Virus record (IMG/VR): IMGVR_UViG_3300005731_000036
Coordinates: 1-42,577 of that record
Length of the DNA stretch: 42,577 nt
Direction: 5' to 3' (one strand)
DNA from: a virus
The notes beneath the pieces are model-generated. The model searched no databases, was not told the origin of the DNA, and was given only the letters and a program-made list of their open reading frames with translations. Of this stretch, positions 3,816 through 31,629 are shown one piece after another. Made by a program: the position numbers and the translations under genes. Each line of letters begins with the position of its first letter. The first letter of the stretch is position 1.

Positions 3816-5688
3816 AGTTGAGGTCGATGCAGACACGGCTCAAGCCACCGACAATATTCAAGACTTCAAGAGAGAGTTGGACTCGATACCCCAATCTGGC
3901 AGGCGCGCTAGTAGGTCGGCGTCTTCTGCAACTGGATCTTTTGACCGCTTGGGCGTTTCAGCAGCCCTATCGAGCAACCGGGCTAGGCAGCTCACGCAGC
4001 AGCTTTCTCAAGTTGCGCAGCAGTCTGTTGCGACAGGTCAGGTTGCACAGGCTTTTGCAATTCAGGCCGCTGATATTGGCTTAGCGTTTGGCACAGTTGG
4101 CACTATTGTTGGCGCGCTTGCTGGCGTTGCGCTTCCCACTCTAATCTCTGTTTTCTCTGATGCCTCAGATGAAACCAGAGATTATGCTGACATCGTTTCT
4201 GAAGCAGAGGACGCTCTTAGGACGTACACTGAGGCGGTGCGTCTTGCGGATATTAGTACAAACGAGCTTGGCGAGCGGTTTATCGAGATTACCCCTGGCG
4301 TTCGTGCTTTTTCTAATGCCCTTAGTGATGTCGCCGGGCGTGATGTAACCGCAAGAATACAAGAGGCCGTTGAGGCTGTTGCCTTGTTCCAGCGGGCAAC
4401 TGGCCAAGGTGCATCAGCTACAGCAGGGGATGTGACCGGTCTTGCGGCCCTGTTTGATGTTAACATTGCCCTAGCGTTTACAAGGCAGACGATTGAGGCG
4501 AGAGACAGGGCGCGCGAGCTTACTGAGGAATTCGCCAGAACTCAGCTAGAACTTGAGCAGACAGATGGAAACCTTGAGAGACAGTCTGAGCTTTTGCGGT
4601 CCCTTGTGCAGCAGGCTACAGTACTAGCCAACGAGACAGGTGGAATTACTCAGGCTGAGAATGACCTAATTCGCCAAATTGCTCAGGCTCTTTCACTGGT
4701 AGAAGGGCAGTTAGACACTACCAGACGTGCAGAGGCGGCTACCGTCACCCTTGCCCAGAGGTTTGGAGAGGTCCAAGCCGCTGCTGCTGGTGTTATGGCT
4801 ATTGTTGATGGTCTAGAGGGTCCAATTCGTCAGGCTGCTGGCGCTGCTGCTGACCTTGCGACAAATCTGTTTGAGGCGGCTAGGGCTAGGGCTGAAATCA
4901 TTGATAGCGCAACCAGACGAGGTGGCGGCAGGGGCGGTGACCCGCGCCAATTTGGCTTGGACGATGCTGCCATTTCGCTACTGACTGGTTTCGGTGGTGA
5001 ATTCATTGACTTTGGCACCGGTGGCGGCGGCGGTGGCGGTGGCACCGGTGGCGGCGGCGCTGATAGAGGAAGAATTGAGGCCCTTGTAAATTCTCTGCAA
5101 ACCGAACGTGAGCTTGTGGAGCAGTTCAGGACTGAAGGCCTAGAGCTTCTGGCGCTTGCAAATGAAGAAGAGTTGGCGGCGCTGGGCGGCTTCAACGAAG
5201 CAAAATTGAGACTTGAGCAAGAGTATCAGGATAGACTGCTAGGCATTAAGAAGACAGGGGCGGCGGCTGACTTGGCAGTTGCGCTGGGAGCCGGGTCTGA
5301 TGTCTTAACTGCGCTTGGTTCTTTCAATGACAAGGCCTTAAAGATTGCTAGAGTGTTTGGGGCGGCGCAGGCTCTGATTGGCGCATTCCAAGGTGCTGCT
5401 GAGGCTCTCAAGCTTCCATATCCGTTCAACATCGCAGCCGCTGCACAAGTGCTAGGGACAGGGCTTGGTTTTGTTTCTGCCATTAAGGGCGTGAGCAGCG
5501 GCGGATCAGGTGGCGGCTCGGCGGCGGCGACCGGCGCACTTGCGGCGGACCCCGTACAGCCTGGGCAGAATATTGTAATTGACTTCCAGGGCGACACTTT
5601 CACCAAACAAGGCGGAATAGCTTTAATCGAGAGCATCAATGAAGCTTTGCGAGATGGTGGACAGATTGACGGGATACTTGCACGATGA
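3796..5688 (+). CDS. Tail tape measure protein
   Basis: About 630 residues. The N terminus (VLPVIRVEVDADTAQATDNI) is typical of tape measure proteins, with long Ala/Gln/Glu-rich helices, a hydrophobic segment near residues 95-120 (IGLAFGTVGTIVGALAGVAL), a Gly run near residue 415, and a second hydrophobic stretch near 530-580. It sets tail length and is ejected on infection. I chose the ATG at 3796; an in-frame ATG at 3778 lies six codons upstream, and neither has a strong ribosome site. By length it is among the shorter members, predicting a tail near 95 nm (rule of about 0.15 nm per residue). Confidence 0.9.
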   Translation: MVLPVIRVEVDADTAQATDNIQDFKRELDSIPQSGRRASRSASSATGSFDRLGVSAALSSNRARQLTQQLSQVAQQSVATGQVAQAFAIQAADIGLAFGTVGTIVGALAGVALPTLISVFSDASDETRDYADIVSEAEDALRTYTEAVRLADISTNELGERFIEITPGVRAFSNALSDVAGRDVTARIQEAVEAVALFQRATGQGASATAGDVTGLAALFDVNIALAFTRQTIEARDRARELTEEFARTQLELEQTDGNLERQSELLRSLVQQATVLANETGGITQAENDLIRQIAQALSLVEGQLDTTRRAEAATVTLAQRFGEVQAAAAGVMAIVDGLEGPIRQAAGAAADLATNLFEAARARAEIIDSATRRGGGRGGDPRQFGLDDAAISLLTGFGGEFIDFGTGGGGGGGGTGGGGADRGRIEALVNSLQTERELVEQFRTEGLELLALANEEELAALGGFNEAKLRLEQEYQDRLLGIKKTGAAADLAVALGAGSDVLTALGSFNDKALKIARVFGAAQALIGAFQGAAEALKLPYPFNIAAAAQVLGTGLGFVSAIKGVSSGGSGGGSAAATGALAADPVQPGQNIVIDFQGDTFTKQGGIALIESINEALRDGGQIDGILAR

Positions 5689-8643: not shown

Positions 8644-9176
8644 TGGCATACACCACACCAGACCTTAACGACTATCTGCCGGGGGAGCCTCTGACATCAG
8701 CCAAGGCGCTACTGATGGTAGAGAACCCCATCGCAATTGCCAATGGTGATGACGACGCCCCGCGCGTATCGCCAAAAGCTTGGGGCCACACGCCGTTTCT
8801 GGGCGGGGCTATCGGAACAGTAGTTTTATCTGACTTTAGCGATTATGGCGGGGTTTTCTTTGAGGTGAAATACAGCAATTCCGCCGGTGGAAGCACCACA
8901 ATGACAATTGAACTGAGCGACGATGGCGCAACCTATGCCGCATCTGCTAATATCGCAACTGTAGCCGGGTCTTCGGACGGGGCAGCAACCGTGTTTTGTG
9001 ACTTTGCAACAGGGGCGGTAAAATCCGTATGGTTTGGGACATCAGGCGCAGGCAGCTATGATTTAACAGCAGGGGTTCCCGGCGGAGGGGTATCTCACAT
9101 TCGCATATCTGCGGCAGGAACAACGACAACTACAATGGGCGTCCTAGCGCTGGCAAATGCTGGCACGGTCGCATAG
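8643..9176 (+). CDS. Probable tail fibre or tip accessory protein
   Basis: A 177-residue protein whose second half is a regular beta-rich sequence (GGVFFEVKYSNSAGGSTTMT, then VWFGTSGAGSYDLTAG), as in receptor-binding or virion decoration domains. It lies between the tip genes and the long fibre. No enzyme motif is visible. A gap of only 20 bases separates it from the fibre gene. Confidence 0.6.
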   Translation: MAYTTPDLNDYLPGEPLTSAKALLMVENPIAIANGDDDAPRVSPKAWGHTPFLGGAIGTVVLSDFSDYGGVFFEVKYSNSAGGSTTMTIELSDDGATYAASANIATVAGSSDGAATVFCDFATGAVKSVWFGTSGAGSYDLTAGVPGGGVSHIRISAAGTTTTTMGVLALANAGTVA

Positions 9177-9196
9177 CAATTTAAACGGGACCTATC

Positions 9197-11506
9197 ATGG
9201 CAATCACCAAGACAACAGTTACAGGGCCAATTGTAGATGCGACTGGCGCAGCTTATCAAAGAGCGTATTTGCGGTTCTCTCCTAATGCAACAGGGGGTGA
9301 CGATGCGGCAGATACGGTTATTGCCCGTGGCCCAGTTGAGGTGCAGCCCGATGAAACGACGGGGGCCTTTAGCATTGAATTAGCCCCGTCCGATGACATT
9401 TCATACACAGTTGATTTGTTTGCCGCAGAAACGCCACAGGGCGGCGCGTCTGTCTCCGTAAAGTATCGCGTAGGGCTTATCCAGGTTCCAGCTTTGGGGC
9501 CTGTGGCGCTGCAAGACCTACTGCCTATCTATGACCCCAGCTTGCCAACTAATGCCGAATTGCTTGCAGCCCTGTCTGCGGCGGTAGCGGAGGCCGAGGC
9601 GGCTGCTGACATTGCTGTTGCAGCGGCTACGCCTGCGGCTGAGTTGATTGCAAACGTGCGAGTTACGCGCGATGAGTTTTCAGAGCTTGCTAGTGTAACA
9701 GCTTCAGATCTGGACGTGGGTGAATATGCGCGCGTTATGTCTGTTGGGGCAACGTATCAGAGGGCTGCGGATGCCGCAACGGATGCGCATCTTGATTACA
9801 GTGGGTCCGGTGGGGTGAAGTGGTACTACATTGTTTTCGGCACCATTCGGGCCTCCGCACTTGGTTATGTCGCTGATGGCGTGACCGACAATGCCGATGT
9901 GATTAAGATCGTTGAGGCCATACTTCGGGAACAAGGCGGGGGATTGGCGCTGCTAGATGGTGGTAGCACTGCTATTTCAAGCTACCCAATGATTGTCCCA
10001 TCTTTTTCAAAGGTGGAGATTGAGGGGGAGCTTTCATATACTGGCGTCGGCAATGCCGGTGTTTATCTGGGTCAGCTTAACAGAACAGACATTGCCCGAT
10101 TTGTAGGGGTGGAAGAGGCCGCTTATGACGCAGGGTCTCTGGTAGACGGAGACTATCAGGTCACGCTGGGTGGCAGGTGGAATAATACGGCGTCCGACTT
10201 TTCAAACCCAGCGACTTGGACGCCAGCTGTAGGCGACAGGGTTGTTCTGAATGTGAACGACGACACAGCGTCGTCCCCATCAACGCCAGTTCCTAGCGCG
10301 ACATATTTGAGGCGGGTACTAGGTGTTAGTGGTAGCGTTTTAACACTAGATGCGCCTGTCAGTGTCGCTGGTGATTATGTCATCACCCCAGCGTCAAGAG
10401 GCTTGGGTTATGATCGCACGACATACGGCGGTGTCGGTAATGTTGAAGTTGTAGAGCGCGCGGAGATTGTTGGGCGCGTTTCCGCCACGGGTGGTGTCCC
10501 AGTATTTTACGGAGCGGTGATAGAGCCTTTCGTTGATGTTGATGTACGTGGCAGGACGGGCTGCTTTGGTAACGCAGCGAGGGGCGGGCTGATGCGCGTT
10601 ACCGGAGAAATCACCGAAACAGCATGCGAGATAAAACTTGGCTCGGAAAACCCATTTATTGATTTAGATCTGAGACACAAGGAAGATGGTGTTAGCTATA
10701 CAGCAGCCTTGGTGTCAACTGGAGAAAATTCCATTGGTGCAAGTTTCGCTCGCTGTAATGTCTCTGCCCCTGAATGGGACGGGGATACTGCGCTAAATAT
10801 CAGGTCCCCAGGGGTTTCTCTTAAGGATACAAAGTTGATAACTGCAGCTACGTCAACTTTGGCGTTTGTCGGCTCTTCGACCACAAATGGGTCAGATTTT
10901 CTTGCCTCTGGCGTATTCATTAGCAGCAGCAACGGCGCAATGTCCGGTGTTCTTCTCGATGTGGACCCTGGGTCGAGCAATGTGGTGATCGCTGACATGG
11001 TTTTGTCTGGCGTCCCTACTGCGGCAAACAGTGTTGTATTTGATGGCGATGGCGAGATAAACAGGCTTGAGGTAATTGACGATGCAGGAGTTGTCCGTCT
11101 TAACGGTGACATTGTTGTTTCTGGCGCGGGGATTTTGGCCAGTGGTTCGGTTGTTCACTCTGGGTCGAAAGTGACCCCCAGCCGCGTTTCAGGTATGATT
11201 AACAACAACATTGTATCAACAAGTTACGTTGCCACACTCACACCTTCTGAGTCCCTGAGAATGACATTAACCGGCCCCCTTGATCTGCAAAGTCCGACTA
11301 TTGGGGACTTTGCAGATGGCGACATATTACAGCTTACGTTCACACAGGACGGCACCGGGGGGCATGCTCTTACTTTCGCCGCGGGCAATGTGTTCAGAGG
11401 CCTTGCGGCCCCAGGTTCAGGCTCTGCGAGTGACAGGTTTTCAATGACGATACAAAAACAGGGGTCTGCTTGGATTGTAATATCCACAAACGGGTCTTGG
11501 GCGTAA
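9197..11506 (+). CDS. Tail fibre / tailspike with beta-helix-like body
   Basis: A 769-residue protein. Residues 1-110 form a small beta N-terminal domain (ITKTTVTGPIVDATGAAYQ) that likely attaches to the tip, followed by an Ala-rich coiled helix near 120-155. From about residue 215 there is the start of a right-handed beta-helix (SALGYVADGVTDNADVIKIV), the pattern that opens pectate-lyase-type tailspikes. The last 100 residues resemble a trimerising cap domain (LQLTFTQDGTGGHALTFAAG), a motif common at the ends of phage fibres. It probably recognises, and may cut, a surface polysaccharide. No catalytic residues can be assigned. Confidence 0.78.
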   Translation: MAITKTTVTGPIVDATGAAYQRAYLRFSPNATGGDDAADTVIARGPVEVQPDETTGAFSIELAPSDDISYTVDLFAAETPQGGASVSVKYRVGLIQVPALGPVALQDLLPIYDPSLPTNAELLAALSAAVAEAEAAADIAVAAATPAAELIANVRVTRDEFSELASVTASDLDVGEYARVMSVGATYQRAADAATDAHLDYSGSGGVKWYYIVFGTIRASALGYVADGVTDNADVIKIVEAILREQGGGLALLDGGSTAISSYPMIVPSFSKVEIEGELSYTGVGNAGVYLGQLNRTDIARFVGVEEAAYDAGSLVDGDYQVTLGGRWNNTASDFSNPATWTPAVGDRVVLNVNDDTASSPSTPVPSATYLRRVLGVSGSVLTLDAPVSVAGDYVITPASRGLGYDRTTYGGVGNVEVVERAEIVGRVSATGGVPVFYGAVIEPFVDVDVRGRTGCFGNAARGGLMRVTGEITETACEIKLGSENPFIDLDLRHKEDGVSYTAALVSTGENSIGASFARCNVSAPEWDGDTALNIRSPGVSLKDTKLITAATSTLAFVGSSTTNGSDFLASGVFISSSNGAMSGVLLDVDPGSSNVVIADMVLSGVPTAANSVVFDGDGEINRLEVIDDAGVVRLNGDIVVSGAGILASGSVVHSGSKVTPSRVSGMINNNIVSTSYVATLTPSESLRMTLTGPLDLQSPTIGDFADGDILQLTFTQDGTGGHALTFAAGNVFRGLAAPGSGSASDRFSMTIQKQGSAWIVISTNGSWA

Positions 11507-25460: not shown

Positions 25461-26003
25461 ATGTCTAATCACACACGAAAGCAGATAGGCAAGCGTCTTC
25501 GCTTTGAGATATTCAAGCGCGACAACTTCACATGCCAATATTGCGGGGGGCATCCGCCCGCGGTAATCCTGCATGTAGATCACATCCTGGCTGTGGCTAA
25601 CGGCGGCGGGAATGATGCAGAAAACTTGGTTACAGCCTGCCAAGACTGCAACCTTGGAAAGTCCGCGGTCCCACTATCCGTAAAGCCTAAGACTCTGGAG
25701 TCCGCGGCACTTGAGGCAAGAGAGGCCGCGGCGCAAGTCAGAGAGCACGCAAAGATGGTTGCCGCGGCGCGTGACGCTATGGAAGCTGTGTGCTGGGAGA
25801 TAGCAGAGGTTATTCACCGCGGCGCTGGAGATGGCTGGAGTGCCGACAAGTTCTCTGGTGTGAAGGGGTTCGTGAAGAGGATAGGATACGCCGAAACCCT
25901 CAAGGCAGCTCACATTGCCGCGGACAGATACCACGAGGGGCCGCGGCGATTTAAGTATTTCTGCGGCATCTGCTGGAACCGGGTAAGGGATGCAGAGCAA
26001 TGA
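25461..26003 (+). CDS. HNH endonuclease at the head of the replication operon
   Basis: A 180-residue protein. Residues about 10-75 are a standard HNH domain: FEIFKRDNFTCQYCGG, then ILHVDHILAVANGGG and ENLVTACQDCNLGK, with two CxxC-type zinc pairs. The Ala/Glu-rich helical C-terminal part (about 85-180) is not familiar. It overlaps the initiator gene by ATGA. Eight CCGCGG sites lie within it. HNH genes beside replication initiators are common in alphaproteobacterial phages; the role may be in replication or superinfection exclusion. Confidence 0.85.
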   Translation: MSNHTRKQIGKRLRFEIFKRDNFTCQYCGGHPPAVILHVDHILAVANGGGNDAENLVTACQDCNLGKSAVPLSVKPKTLESAALEAREAAAQVREHAKMVAAARDAMEAVCWEIAEVIHRGAGDGWSADKFSGVKGFVKRIGYAETLKAAHIAADRYHEGPRRFKYFCGICWNRVRDAEQ

Positions 26004-26119
26004 GCGGAACCGTAAATATCTCCCGCGGCATCTGGCATGACGTGGCGTTCAAAGATGAGCCATTCTCGGAGCGCGAGGCATTTATCTGGATCATTATGGA
26101 GGCATCATACAAGCCGCGG
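25558..26119. repeat. Cluster of ten CCGCGG palindromes
   Basis: CCGCGG begins at 25558, 25663, 25702, 25726, 25762, 25817, 25918, 25941, 26023 and 26114. The copies fall in all three codon phases of the two genes they cross, so codon choice alone does not explain them. I found a single further copy in the rest of the window (11379). They end about 130 bases before the iteron set. Confidence 0.85.
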
Positions 26120-26866
26120 GAGAAGCGCGTAGGCTCAATTACTGTCAGCCTGGAGCGCGGCCAACTCGTTACATCTGTTAGATTTATGTGCTCTGCGTGG
26201 TCTTGGTCAAAATCCAGAGTAGATAGGTTCCTAAAACGTCTCGAAAATCGGGACATGATCGGGACAGACAGCGGGACAGGAATAAACGTCATAACAGTTT
26301 GCAAATACAACGATTATCAGAACGGAGTTAAGCCAAGCGGGACAGCCGGAAATGAAAAGCGGGACAGCAGCGGGACAGCAGCGGGACAGCAGCGGGACAA
26401 ACCTAAGAAGGGTTTAATACCAGAAGCAAGAAAGATGCAAAAAGAGGATACTAACGTATCCTTGTCATTAGTGCCTACTGACGATGGTGGAGATTCAATC
26501 TCTGAGGCTATTTCAATGTTCAAAGAAGCCGCTGAGAAAAGCGGATGGCCAGTGCCTAGGGTTCTGAGCAAGGCTCGCAGGTCAGCTCTCACAGCGAGGC
26601 TCAAGGAATGTGGAGGCATTGAAGGCTGGCGGGTTGCTTTGGAAAAGGCGCAGGCATCGGCTCACTGCTGCGGAGACAATCAACGCGGCTGGGTTATGAC
26701 GTTTGACTTTATCACAACACAATCATCATTCGCCAAACTTATGGAGGGCAACTATGACAACCGGACTAACAACCATTCCAAAGCACATTCCCAAGCCAAC
26801 GCCGGAGCTAGCGCAATCGCTGCTGCCGCAAGAATTAGAAGATCACAGAGCGGAGATCTGTTCTGA
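26000..26866 (+). CDS. Replication initiator, lambda O-like
   Basis: A 288-residue protein. Residues about 5-110 form a winged-helix domain of the phage replication O / DnaD N-terminal type (EREAFIWIIMEASYKPREKR, then SWSKSRVDRFLKRLENRDMI). The middle (about 115-150) is low-complexity because the iterons are encoded there. The C-terminal part (about 170-250; WPVPRVLSKARRSALTARLK) is shared with many phage replication proteins and may contact the helicase loader. The origin within its own gene matches lambda O. AGATGCAGAGCA lies before the ATG in an ATGA overlap. Confidence 0.82.
   Translation: MSGTVNISRGIWHDVAFKDEPFSEREAFIWIIMEASYKPREKRVGSITVSLERGQLVTSVRFMCSAWSWSKSRVDRFLKRLENRDMIGTDSGTGINVITVCKYNDYQNGVKPSGTAGNEKRDSSGTAAGQQRDKPKKGLIPEARKMQKEDTNVSLSLVPTDDGGDSISEAISMFKEAAEKSGWPVPRVLSKARRSALTARLKECGGIEGWRVALEKAQASAHCCGDNQRGWVMTFDFITTQSSFAKLMEGNYDNRTNNHSKAHSQANAGASAIAAAARIRRSQSGDLF
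26249..26399. repeat. CGGGACA iterons, probable replication origin
   Basis: Eight copies of CGGGACA, all on the same strand, begin at 26249, 26260, 26272, 26338, 26360, 26371, 26382 and 26393. Spacings are 11, 12, 66, 22, 11, 11 and 11; all but one are multiples of 11 bases. The last four share a longer unit, AGCGGGACAGC. An AT-rich stretch (26280-26336) lies between the two groups. Helically phased iterons within an O-like gene are the classic organisation of lambdoid origins. Confidence 0.82.
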
Positions 26867-27907: not shown

Positions 27908-28234
27908 ATGAGGGCAAGCGTAATAGTTGACGCAATCAAGGGAGAGGCGGCTATACGGTTTGGAGTGAGCGCCAATGATATTGATAGCCACAAGCGCCAA
28001 AGGCCAATAGCAAGGGCGCGTCAGGCCTGCATGGCGGTAGCGCTGGAGAAGGTAAACAACTCAAGCCTCAACAGCATAGGCGCAATTTTCAAGCGCGACC
28101 ACACCACAGTTATGCATGCTAGGGACGCGACAGCACAGAGAGAAAAAGAAGACCCTGAGTACCCGGCAATTCTTAACGCAATTCGCGCTCGCGCCGACCT
28201 TGAGCGCAAGTATTGGAAGGATTTGGTTGGATGA
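27908..28234 (+). CDS. Stand-alone DnaA domain IV protein
   Basis: A 108-residue protein matching the C-terminal DNA-binding domain of bacterial DnaA: AIRFGVSANDIDSHKRQRPI, RQACMAVALEKVNNSSLNSI, then the signature FKRDHTTVMHA. Domains I-III (including the ATPase) are absent. It could bind DnaA boxes on phage DNA, or compete with host DnaA and so block host initiation. GGAGAGAGATAG precedes the ATG; overlaps the next gene by ATGA. Confidence 0.88.
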   Translation: MRASVIVDAIKGEAAIRFGVSANDIDSHKRQRPIARARQACMAVALEKVNNSSLNSIGAIFKRDHTTVMHARDATAQREKEDPEYPAILNAIRARADLERKYWKDLVG

Positions 28235-31233: not shown

Positions 31234-31629
31234 ATGCCCGGCGGCAGGCCAACAAAGTACACCCCAGAGCTACTAAAGGCCGCCGAGGAATACTTGGCAG
31301 GAGCATGGGAAGACGCAGGTGATGTAGTGCCCACCGTAGTGGGGCTAGCCATCGCTATTGGAATCCAAAAAAGCACTTGTTACGCATGGGCAAAAGAGCC
31401 TGGAAAAGAACGGTTTTCAGACATCTTAGAGGAAATCGAGAACAAACAGGAACAAAAACTCGTAAATGGGGGGCTTGAAGGGAAATTTGTTTCGCCAATC
31501 GCAAAGATGATGCTCACCAAGCACGGATACAGTGATAAGATCGAGCAAGACCACAAATCAAGTGATGGGTCTATGACACCAAAGGGGATGGCGGATTTCT
31601 ACGCAGATGCTGGATCAGACGACGAATAA
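31234..31629 (+). CDS. terS: Terminase small subunit
   Basis: A 131-residue protein. The N terminus GGRPTKYTPELLKAAEEYL, the HTH region VVGLAIAIGIQKSTCYAWAK and the C-terminal KMMLTKHGYSDK are typical of P22 gp3-type and related small terminases, which pick the packaging site and feed DNA to the motor. AGATAGGAGACTCAC precedes the ATG. It overlaps the large subunit gene by 23 bases. Headful packaging would agree with a permuted, circular assembly. Confidence 0.88.
   Translation: MPGGRPTKYTPELLKAAEEYLAGAWEDAGDVVPTVVGLAIAIGIQKSTCYAWAKEPGKERFSDILEEIENKQEQKLVNGGLEGKFVSPIAKMMLTKHGYSDKIEQDHKSSDGSMTPKGMADFYADAGSDDE

Follow-up and report, generated by a model that had tools for sequence, protein, structure and literature searches.

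Palindrome clusters in single genes of several phages point to a hitherto undescribed, selected type of DNA pattern

Why should a phage genome hold nearly all copies of one six-base palindrome in a single short region? The question is raised by a virus record of 42,577 bases (52% GC), here called the window, i.e., the whole stretch of DNA that was analyzed. By motif count, CCGCGG occurs 11 times in the window, and 10 of these copies lie within 562 bases (25558-26119). The clustered sites, listed without strand and numbered here 1 to 10, are at 25558-25563, 25663-25668, 25702-25707, 25726-25731, 25762-25767, 25817-25822, 25918-25923, 25941-25946, 26023-26028, and 26114-26119, and the sole copy outside the cluster is at 11379-11384. 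Dinucleotide shuffles of the whole window gave a mean of 10.3 copies; hence, the total is ordinary and the placement extraordinary (p about 1e-15 under random placement). The counts agree with a sequence-only reading of this DNA, which had reported ten copies in 562 bases and one elsewhere, a chance expectation of more than ten for the whole window, and depletion outside the cluster (one copy in the other 42 kb). No other palindromic 6-mer in the window comes close to CCGCGG in clustering, the runner-up reaching 3 copies in 562 bases. GGCGGC and GCGGCG, neither of them a palindrome, have 12 and 11 copies near 5.0 kb but are also common elsewhere (50 and 43 copies). Other palindromes are scarce in the window as well (GGCGCC, 0 versus 17 expected; CAGCTG, 1 versus 14 expected), and rarity of palindromes in a phage genome is a usual sign of restriction avoidance.

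Eight of the ten sites fall in a gene for an HNH endonuclease of 180 aa (25461-26003, plus strand; PHROG 14314, Pfam HNH), which also contains three one-mismatch copies, and sites 9 and 10 lie inside the gene for a DnaD/O-like replication initiator (26000-26866, plus strand). The simplest explanation would be chance, or amino-acid or codon composition. The sites do use all three codon phases, as had been claimed, though six of the eight HNH sites are in phase 1 (Ala-Ala or Ser-Ala), which would suit a compositional origin. Nonetheless, eight copies were observed where 0.93 were expected, and the codon-shuffled null that had been proposed as a check never reached eight in 20,000 shuffles of the HNH gene. 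Codons do not explain the cluster, and with the recurrence of clusters in eight lineages described below, composition is already refuted and retains hardly any probability. Taken alone, the initiator gene is not significant (2 copies versus 0.38 expected; 143 of 3,000 shuffles reach 2). Those residues of the window HNH protein that site codons encode have a lower mean frequency among homologs than its other residues (0.25 versus 0.43, p 0.011; 58 of 80 homologs used, the 22 dropped being mostly near-duplicates or the most distant), and the location of the window sites largely in a variable linker may be the cause. Among 81 HNH genes, the window gene and L028 stand out, and L020 does so weakly (three TGATCA); with only two or three such genes, the HNH family as such is without clusters.

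Among other possibilities, the cluster had been read as an element of the replication origin. Within the initiator gene, CGGGACAG-type repeats at about 26249-26405 look like origin iterons, and they are well conserved in L004, a 5.8-kb contig, and in the Sulfitobacter phage pCB2047-A. L004 is the closest relative found (HNH 75% identical) and has three CCGCGG, all near its HNH gene. The persistence of sites in relatives had been put forward as a check on the cluster, and in L004 it is partial: sites 2 and 3 are shared (at 845 and 884 of the contig), and the other eight are not. The match between pCB2047-A and the window covers 429 bases of the first half of the initiator gene (79% identity). 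In pCB2047-A, all 15 CCGCGG in 36.8 kb lie at L084:10340-11605, over the integrase and the small genes preceding it, while the initiator homolog is at L084:20000, about 8-9 kb from that cluster. Sulfitobacter phage NYA-2014a has 14 of 15 copies in the integrase region, the fifteenth being 158 bases before the record end, and pCB2047-C has 15 of 16 there and no match to the window initiator. The difference between pCB2047-A and pCB2047-C is a region of about 2 kb (PMC4047441). Since pCB2047-C keeps the cluster without a window-type initiator, the cluster is independent of the initiator, and the origin interpretation did not survive this comparison. The sites were accordingly rejected as origin iterons, as they do not travel with the initiator gene in pCB2047-A and pCB2047-C. 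The iterons annotated in gene O of the lambda record are likewise repeated DNA sites in a replication gene and have a counterpart in the CGGGACAG-type repeats, whereas the CCGCGG sites are distinct from these repeats, lie upstream at irregular intervals, and have no tie to the initiator. Elsewhere in the window (27908-28234), a small protein has as its sole match DnaA domain IV (Bac_DnaA_C), and one such protein is also annotated in the phiGT1 record.

Two further phages illustrate the pattern at higher copy number. In the environmental phage G027 (41.8 kb), which was found via its HNH gene, all 23 CCGCGG fall within 9114-10629, a segment that spans a tyrosine integrase gene, with 18 of the copies, and a small gene upstream of it. 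G071 (39.5 kb), likewise environmental, encodes an integrase 91% identical to that of G027 and has 23 of 23 copies in the matching region: the integrase holds 15, a small ORF upstream of it 4, and a convergent neighboring ORF 3, with one more copy behind the integrase. As it continues past the integrase into this convergent ORF (L257:3926-4150), the G071 cluster is not strictly confined to a single gene. The Sulfitobacter phages, G027, and G071 thus carry 15-23 CCGCGG each, nearly all in the integrase region. ARAGORN found no tRNA beside the G027 and G071 integrases, and hence no attachment site is claimed; in the window, no tyrosine integrase (PF00589) was found. Additional palindromes are concentrated in the same places, namely, CAGCTG in the pCB2047 integrase region (6 of 8), and GGATCC (7 of 9) and TCCGGA (8 of 10) in that of G071. 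The G071 integrase gene itself has 6 GGATCC, 7 TCCGGA, and 15 CCGCGG, versus 0, 2, and 18 in its G027 sister, and the G027 genome is without any GGATCC. Furthermore, the DnaB gene of G071 holds six of the seven CTCGAG of this phage (0.70 expected).

Other phages have clusters of other palindromes. CTCGAG occurs at the integrase of G014 (9 of 10 copies), GCCGGC (9 of 11) and CGGCCG (7 of 7) in the integrase of G012, where the two words largely overlap, CTGCAG in the HNH gene of G013 (5 of 5), and GGGCCC in a phiGT1 gene with a weak HNH match (5 of 5). At a cut-off of p below 1e-6, a palindrome cluster was present in 10 of 39 phage records, a non-random sample assembled via HNH, initiator, or integrase relatives. 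Three of these ten are near-identical Sulfitobacter phages, and the ten represent eight lineages, or seven when G027 and G071, whose integrases are related, are counted as one. The bases covered were 36,813 of 40,929 for pCB2047-A, 40,286 of 40,931 for pCB2047-C, 39,134 of 53,160 for Ruegeria phage 45A6, and the first 40,000 for G021 and G046. Among the 29 negatives, the strongest signals were CGCGCG in G010 (4e-6) and then GAGCTC in G072 (2e-4, at the integrase), and none of six known phages (lambda, P22, Mx8, JBD44, Acica, and Alfacinha3) has a cluster. Local clustering of 6-mers belongs to palindromes: 16 of 1,179 palindromic tests passed (near-identical Sulfitobacter phages included) versus 86 of 72,953 non-palindromic tests, and 31 of those 86 were left after repeat removal, several of them overlapping the palindromes. 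Interrupted palindromes and 4-, 5-, and 8-mers gave no comparable cluster beyond sub-words of those already found, the remaining matches being mostly in few genomes and taken for repeat or biased regions. The gene types hit are integrases, HNH nucleases, and the DnaB helicase, and, less certainly, a primase fragment and a terminase.

These clusters almost certainly result from selection at the DNA level, as the sequence-only reading had argued, and more precisely from selection on how many sites one place contains; they are not accounted for by chance, codon usage, RNA folding, or simple import. In addition to the depletion elsewhere, the main palindrome exceeded codon shuffles in the cluster gene of all eight lineages (0 of 2,000 shuffles each; for GCCGGC in G012, 2 of 5,000 in another run). 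One-mismatch neighbors of the sites are scarce, with 3 observed versus 8.2 expected in the window HNH gene, 3 versus 20.4 in the G027 integrase, and 7 versus 18.8 in G071, and weaker deficits in G012 (16 versus 18.3) and G013 (3 versus 3.9). They are below the shuffle mean in seven of seven lineages (combined z about -5.1, with G071 omitted as the sister of G027). In cluster genes, exact and near sites together come to about the total that is expected, as if near-sites had become sites, and the deficit arises partly because the surplus of sites draws on the same codons. Between the G027 and G071 integrases, synonymous third positions inside G027 sites changed in 3 of 34 cases versus 102 of 288 elsewhere (p 0.0015). 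From G027 to G071, 14 of 18 CCGCGG sites are kept, other all-G/C hexamers also being fairly conserved (40 of 66). Folding within the mRNA was rejected as a cause: the energies of seven cluster genes are ordinary, from -1.7 to +1.9 sd of codon shuffles.

Few near-sites together with many full sites are also what would be predicted if methyltransferase-coupled biased repair created sites without function, the ratchet proposed for HIPs (PMC4390886). Such a process would be expected to act genome-wide, whereas the other 40 kb of the window avoid the site, and this local confinement makes the ratchet highly improbable. According to the same work, cyanobacterial HIP1 and alternate HIPs are tied to a cognate methyltransferase, and they resemble the phage clusters in being GC-rich palindromes of 6-8 bp that are over-represented at the DNA level and differ in identity between genomes (PMC4390886). 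They differ in being genome-wide and mostly at 0.5-2.5 per kb, as opposed to about 15-18 per kb in one region with the rest of the phage genome avoiding the site; the single copy in the other 42 kb of the window is no genome-wide over-representation of the HIP kind. Genomes of HIP type do exist, and import of a segment from a donor with such a highly iterated palindrome would suit the pCB2047 integrase region, where CAGCTG is also concentrated. Nonetheless, import is very unlikely, given the published HIP densities. Moreover, six bacterial genomes with integrase relatives (3.8-7.1 Mb) have 0-29 three-copy CCGCGG clusters each, and none of 30 chromosomal integrase loci (108 genes) is enriched. 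Import is also opposed by the different extra palindromes of G027 and G071 within the same gene, and by the turnover of the G014 CTCGAG cluster, which is missing from an 81%-identical relative. Turnover is also seen in full-length relatives of the G027 integrase at 57-68% identity, whose genes contain 0-1 CCGCGG or lack a cluster.

If the sites are selected as DNA, what reads them? Recognition by the window HNH protein had been proposed. A full-length homolog of this protein occurs in four of the eight positive lineages and a match in 21 of the 29 negatives, which speaks against the proposal, although, as most surveyed genomes were found through the HNH gene, the counts show only that HNH and cluster do not go together. 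Packaging had also been suggested. In pac of phage P1, seven methylatable sites occupy about 160 bp by the packaging gene; like GATC clusters at origins, pac resembles the present case in that methylatable palindromes are clustered inside phage coding DNA. Here, in contrast, the palindrome varies by phage, and the integrase or HNH genes that contain it are distant from the terminase. In the window, terS (31234-31629) starts 5.1 kb from the cluster, so that neither a packaging site nor, specifically, a P1-type methylation-sensed pac in or beside the terminase is upheld. A methylation- or restriction-related role of the cluster is possible.

No gene was found in all cluster-positive lineages. 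The most widely shared is the large terminase, in five of the eight positives versus 4-8 of the 29 negatives, varying by query and method. A link to the terminase (5 of 8 versus 6 of 29, p 0.035, post hoc) was not upheld; the same query by tblastn gave 5 of 8 versus 8 of 29. These results bear on a dedicated phage or host DNA-binding protein (a silencer, or a compaction, partition, or packaging factor) that would nucleate on the cluster and change its specificity between phages. Such a protein would suit many short, irregularly spaced copies in one place with few near-sites left, as well as the G071 cluster that crosses a gene border, and sites would be avoided elsewhere because the cluster address must be unique. 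Even so, we regard it as unlikely, with no gene common to all positives and the large terminase not clearly associated. CCGCGG is also avoided in several relatives free of CCGCGG clusters (observed/expected: G012, 0/24; G004, 1/24; G006, 1/10; G007, 2/34; G010, 1/22), and the three palindromes in one G071 gene would require several proteins. Several palindromes in one gene, as in G071 and as CCGCGG with CAGCTG in pCB2047, fit restriction or modification enzymes better than one binding protein.

Type II restriction-modification enzymes and methyltransferases act on contiguous 6-bp palindromes, and CCGCGG in the window is such a word, avoided in the rest of the genome and likewise in the several cluster-free relatives just listed. 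Site-loading of one gene is therefore favored by the Type II-like palindromes, the avoidance elsewhere, and the DNA-enzyme genes that are hit. Our tentative inference, at somewhat less than an even chance, is that the sites are recognized by palindrome-specific host enzymes, either of Type II restriction-modification or an orphan methyltransferase, and that selection loads one gene with them. Ordinary anti-restriction selection would clear the enzyme's sites from the rest of the phage genome, while selection would favor many sites in a single integrase or endonuclease gene that lytic growth presumably does not require. Host modification or cleavage would then act at the loaded gene and nowhere else, and the output of this gene would vary with the previous or current host of the DNA, making it a switch or sensor. 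Integrases are dispensable for lytic growth, and the HNH gene is assumed to be; the CTCGAG cluster in the G071 DnaB gene, which is hardly dispensable, argues against the reading. A phage cut at one locus normally still dies, and so a benefit from local cutting has to be assumed. The absence of CCGCGG avoidance in some cluster-free phages (observed/expected: G021, 55/42; G053, 25/23) also counts against this enzyme-based reading, as does the small number of window sites, two of ten, shared with L004. A search for two methyltransferase families found PF00145 in 3 and PF01555 in 4 of 16 records, neither being common to the positives and none being in the window. A broader version, which we consider doubtful, is that some phages in several lineages mark one DNA-enzyme gene (integrase, HNH, or helicase) with a dense epigenetic address. 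A host-read palindrome would be removed from the rest of the genome and brought near saturation in this gene, and host modification state would control the gene as a memory of the previous host.

Cutting might instead be steered to a dispensable gene as a sacrificial locus, with the rest of the genome staying in one repairable piece, or CRISPR spacers might be drawn from a gene that can be lost. The cluster-bearing genes are mostly integrases or endonucleases and the window contains the recombination genes Erf, NinB, and SSB, as this would have it. It is decidedly unlikely, however, as it does not by itself explain the gain of sites beyond chance, and the DnaB gene is hit too.

Studies of restriction-site avoidance in phages concern the same kind of palindromes, depleted over most of the genome, but the words "cluster" and "integrase" are absent from the main text, as available, of PMC6286503. 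A search of the open-access literature by titles and the beginnings of abstracts, most subscription papers being outside its scope, returned no description of gene-confined palindrome saturation, in agreement with the earlier statement that no phage element of this type is described. The clusters in several phages point to a selected type of DNA pattern that is so far undescribed, superimposed on phage coding genes, specific each time to a single gene and a single palindrome, and recurring across lineages. If restriction-modification-type enzymes read it, phages would use host modification and not merely evade it, and a palindrome found by clustering would predict the specificity of a host enzyme. 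The isolated Sulfitobacter phages pCB2047-A, pCB2047-C, and NYA-2014a make the pattern directly testable.

Two methyltransferase-like genes were noted in the relatives. G027:6764-7267 matches a C5-cytosine methyltransferase, in a phage with one of the densest CCGCGG clusters, and an ORF at L004:4885-5565 has a DPPY-like motif by eye, suggesting a candidate amino-methyltransferase in the closest relative of the window. A scan for three close copies gave, among the matches listed, many GC-rich or repeat cases. The L627 primase gene was rejected as a cluster (56 of 1,500 shuffles, not significant), and L470, L493, L604, and L479 are uncertain; in L479, among the matches listed, six CTCGAG lie in 163 bases (5412-5574) inside a large terminase gene, with none elsewhere in the 6.8-kb locus. 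L685:1068-1883, also among the matches listed, looks like a further case, with all nine GGATCC of a 7.5-kb locus, six of them in one unassigned gene, and 3 near-sites versus 8.3 expected.
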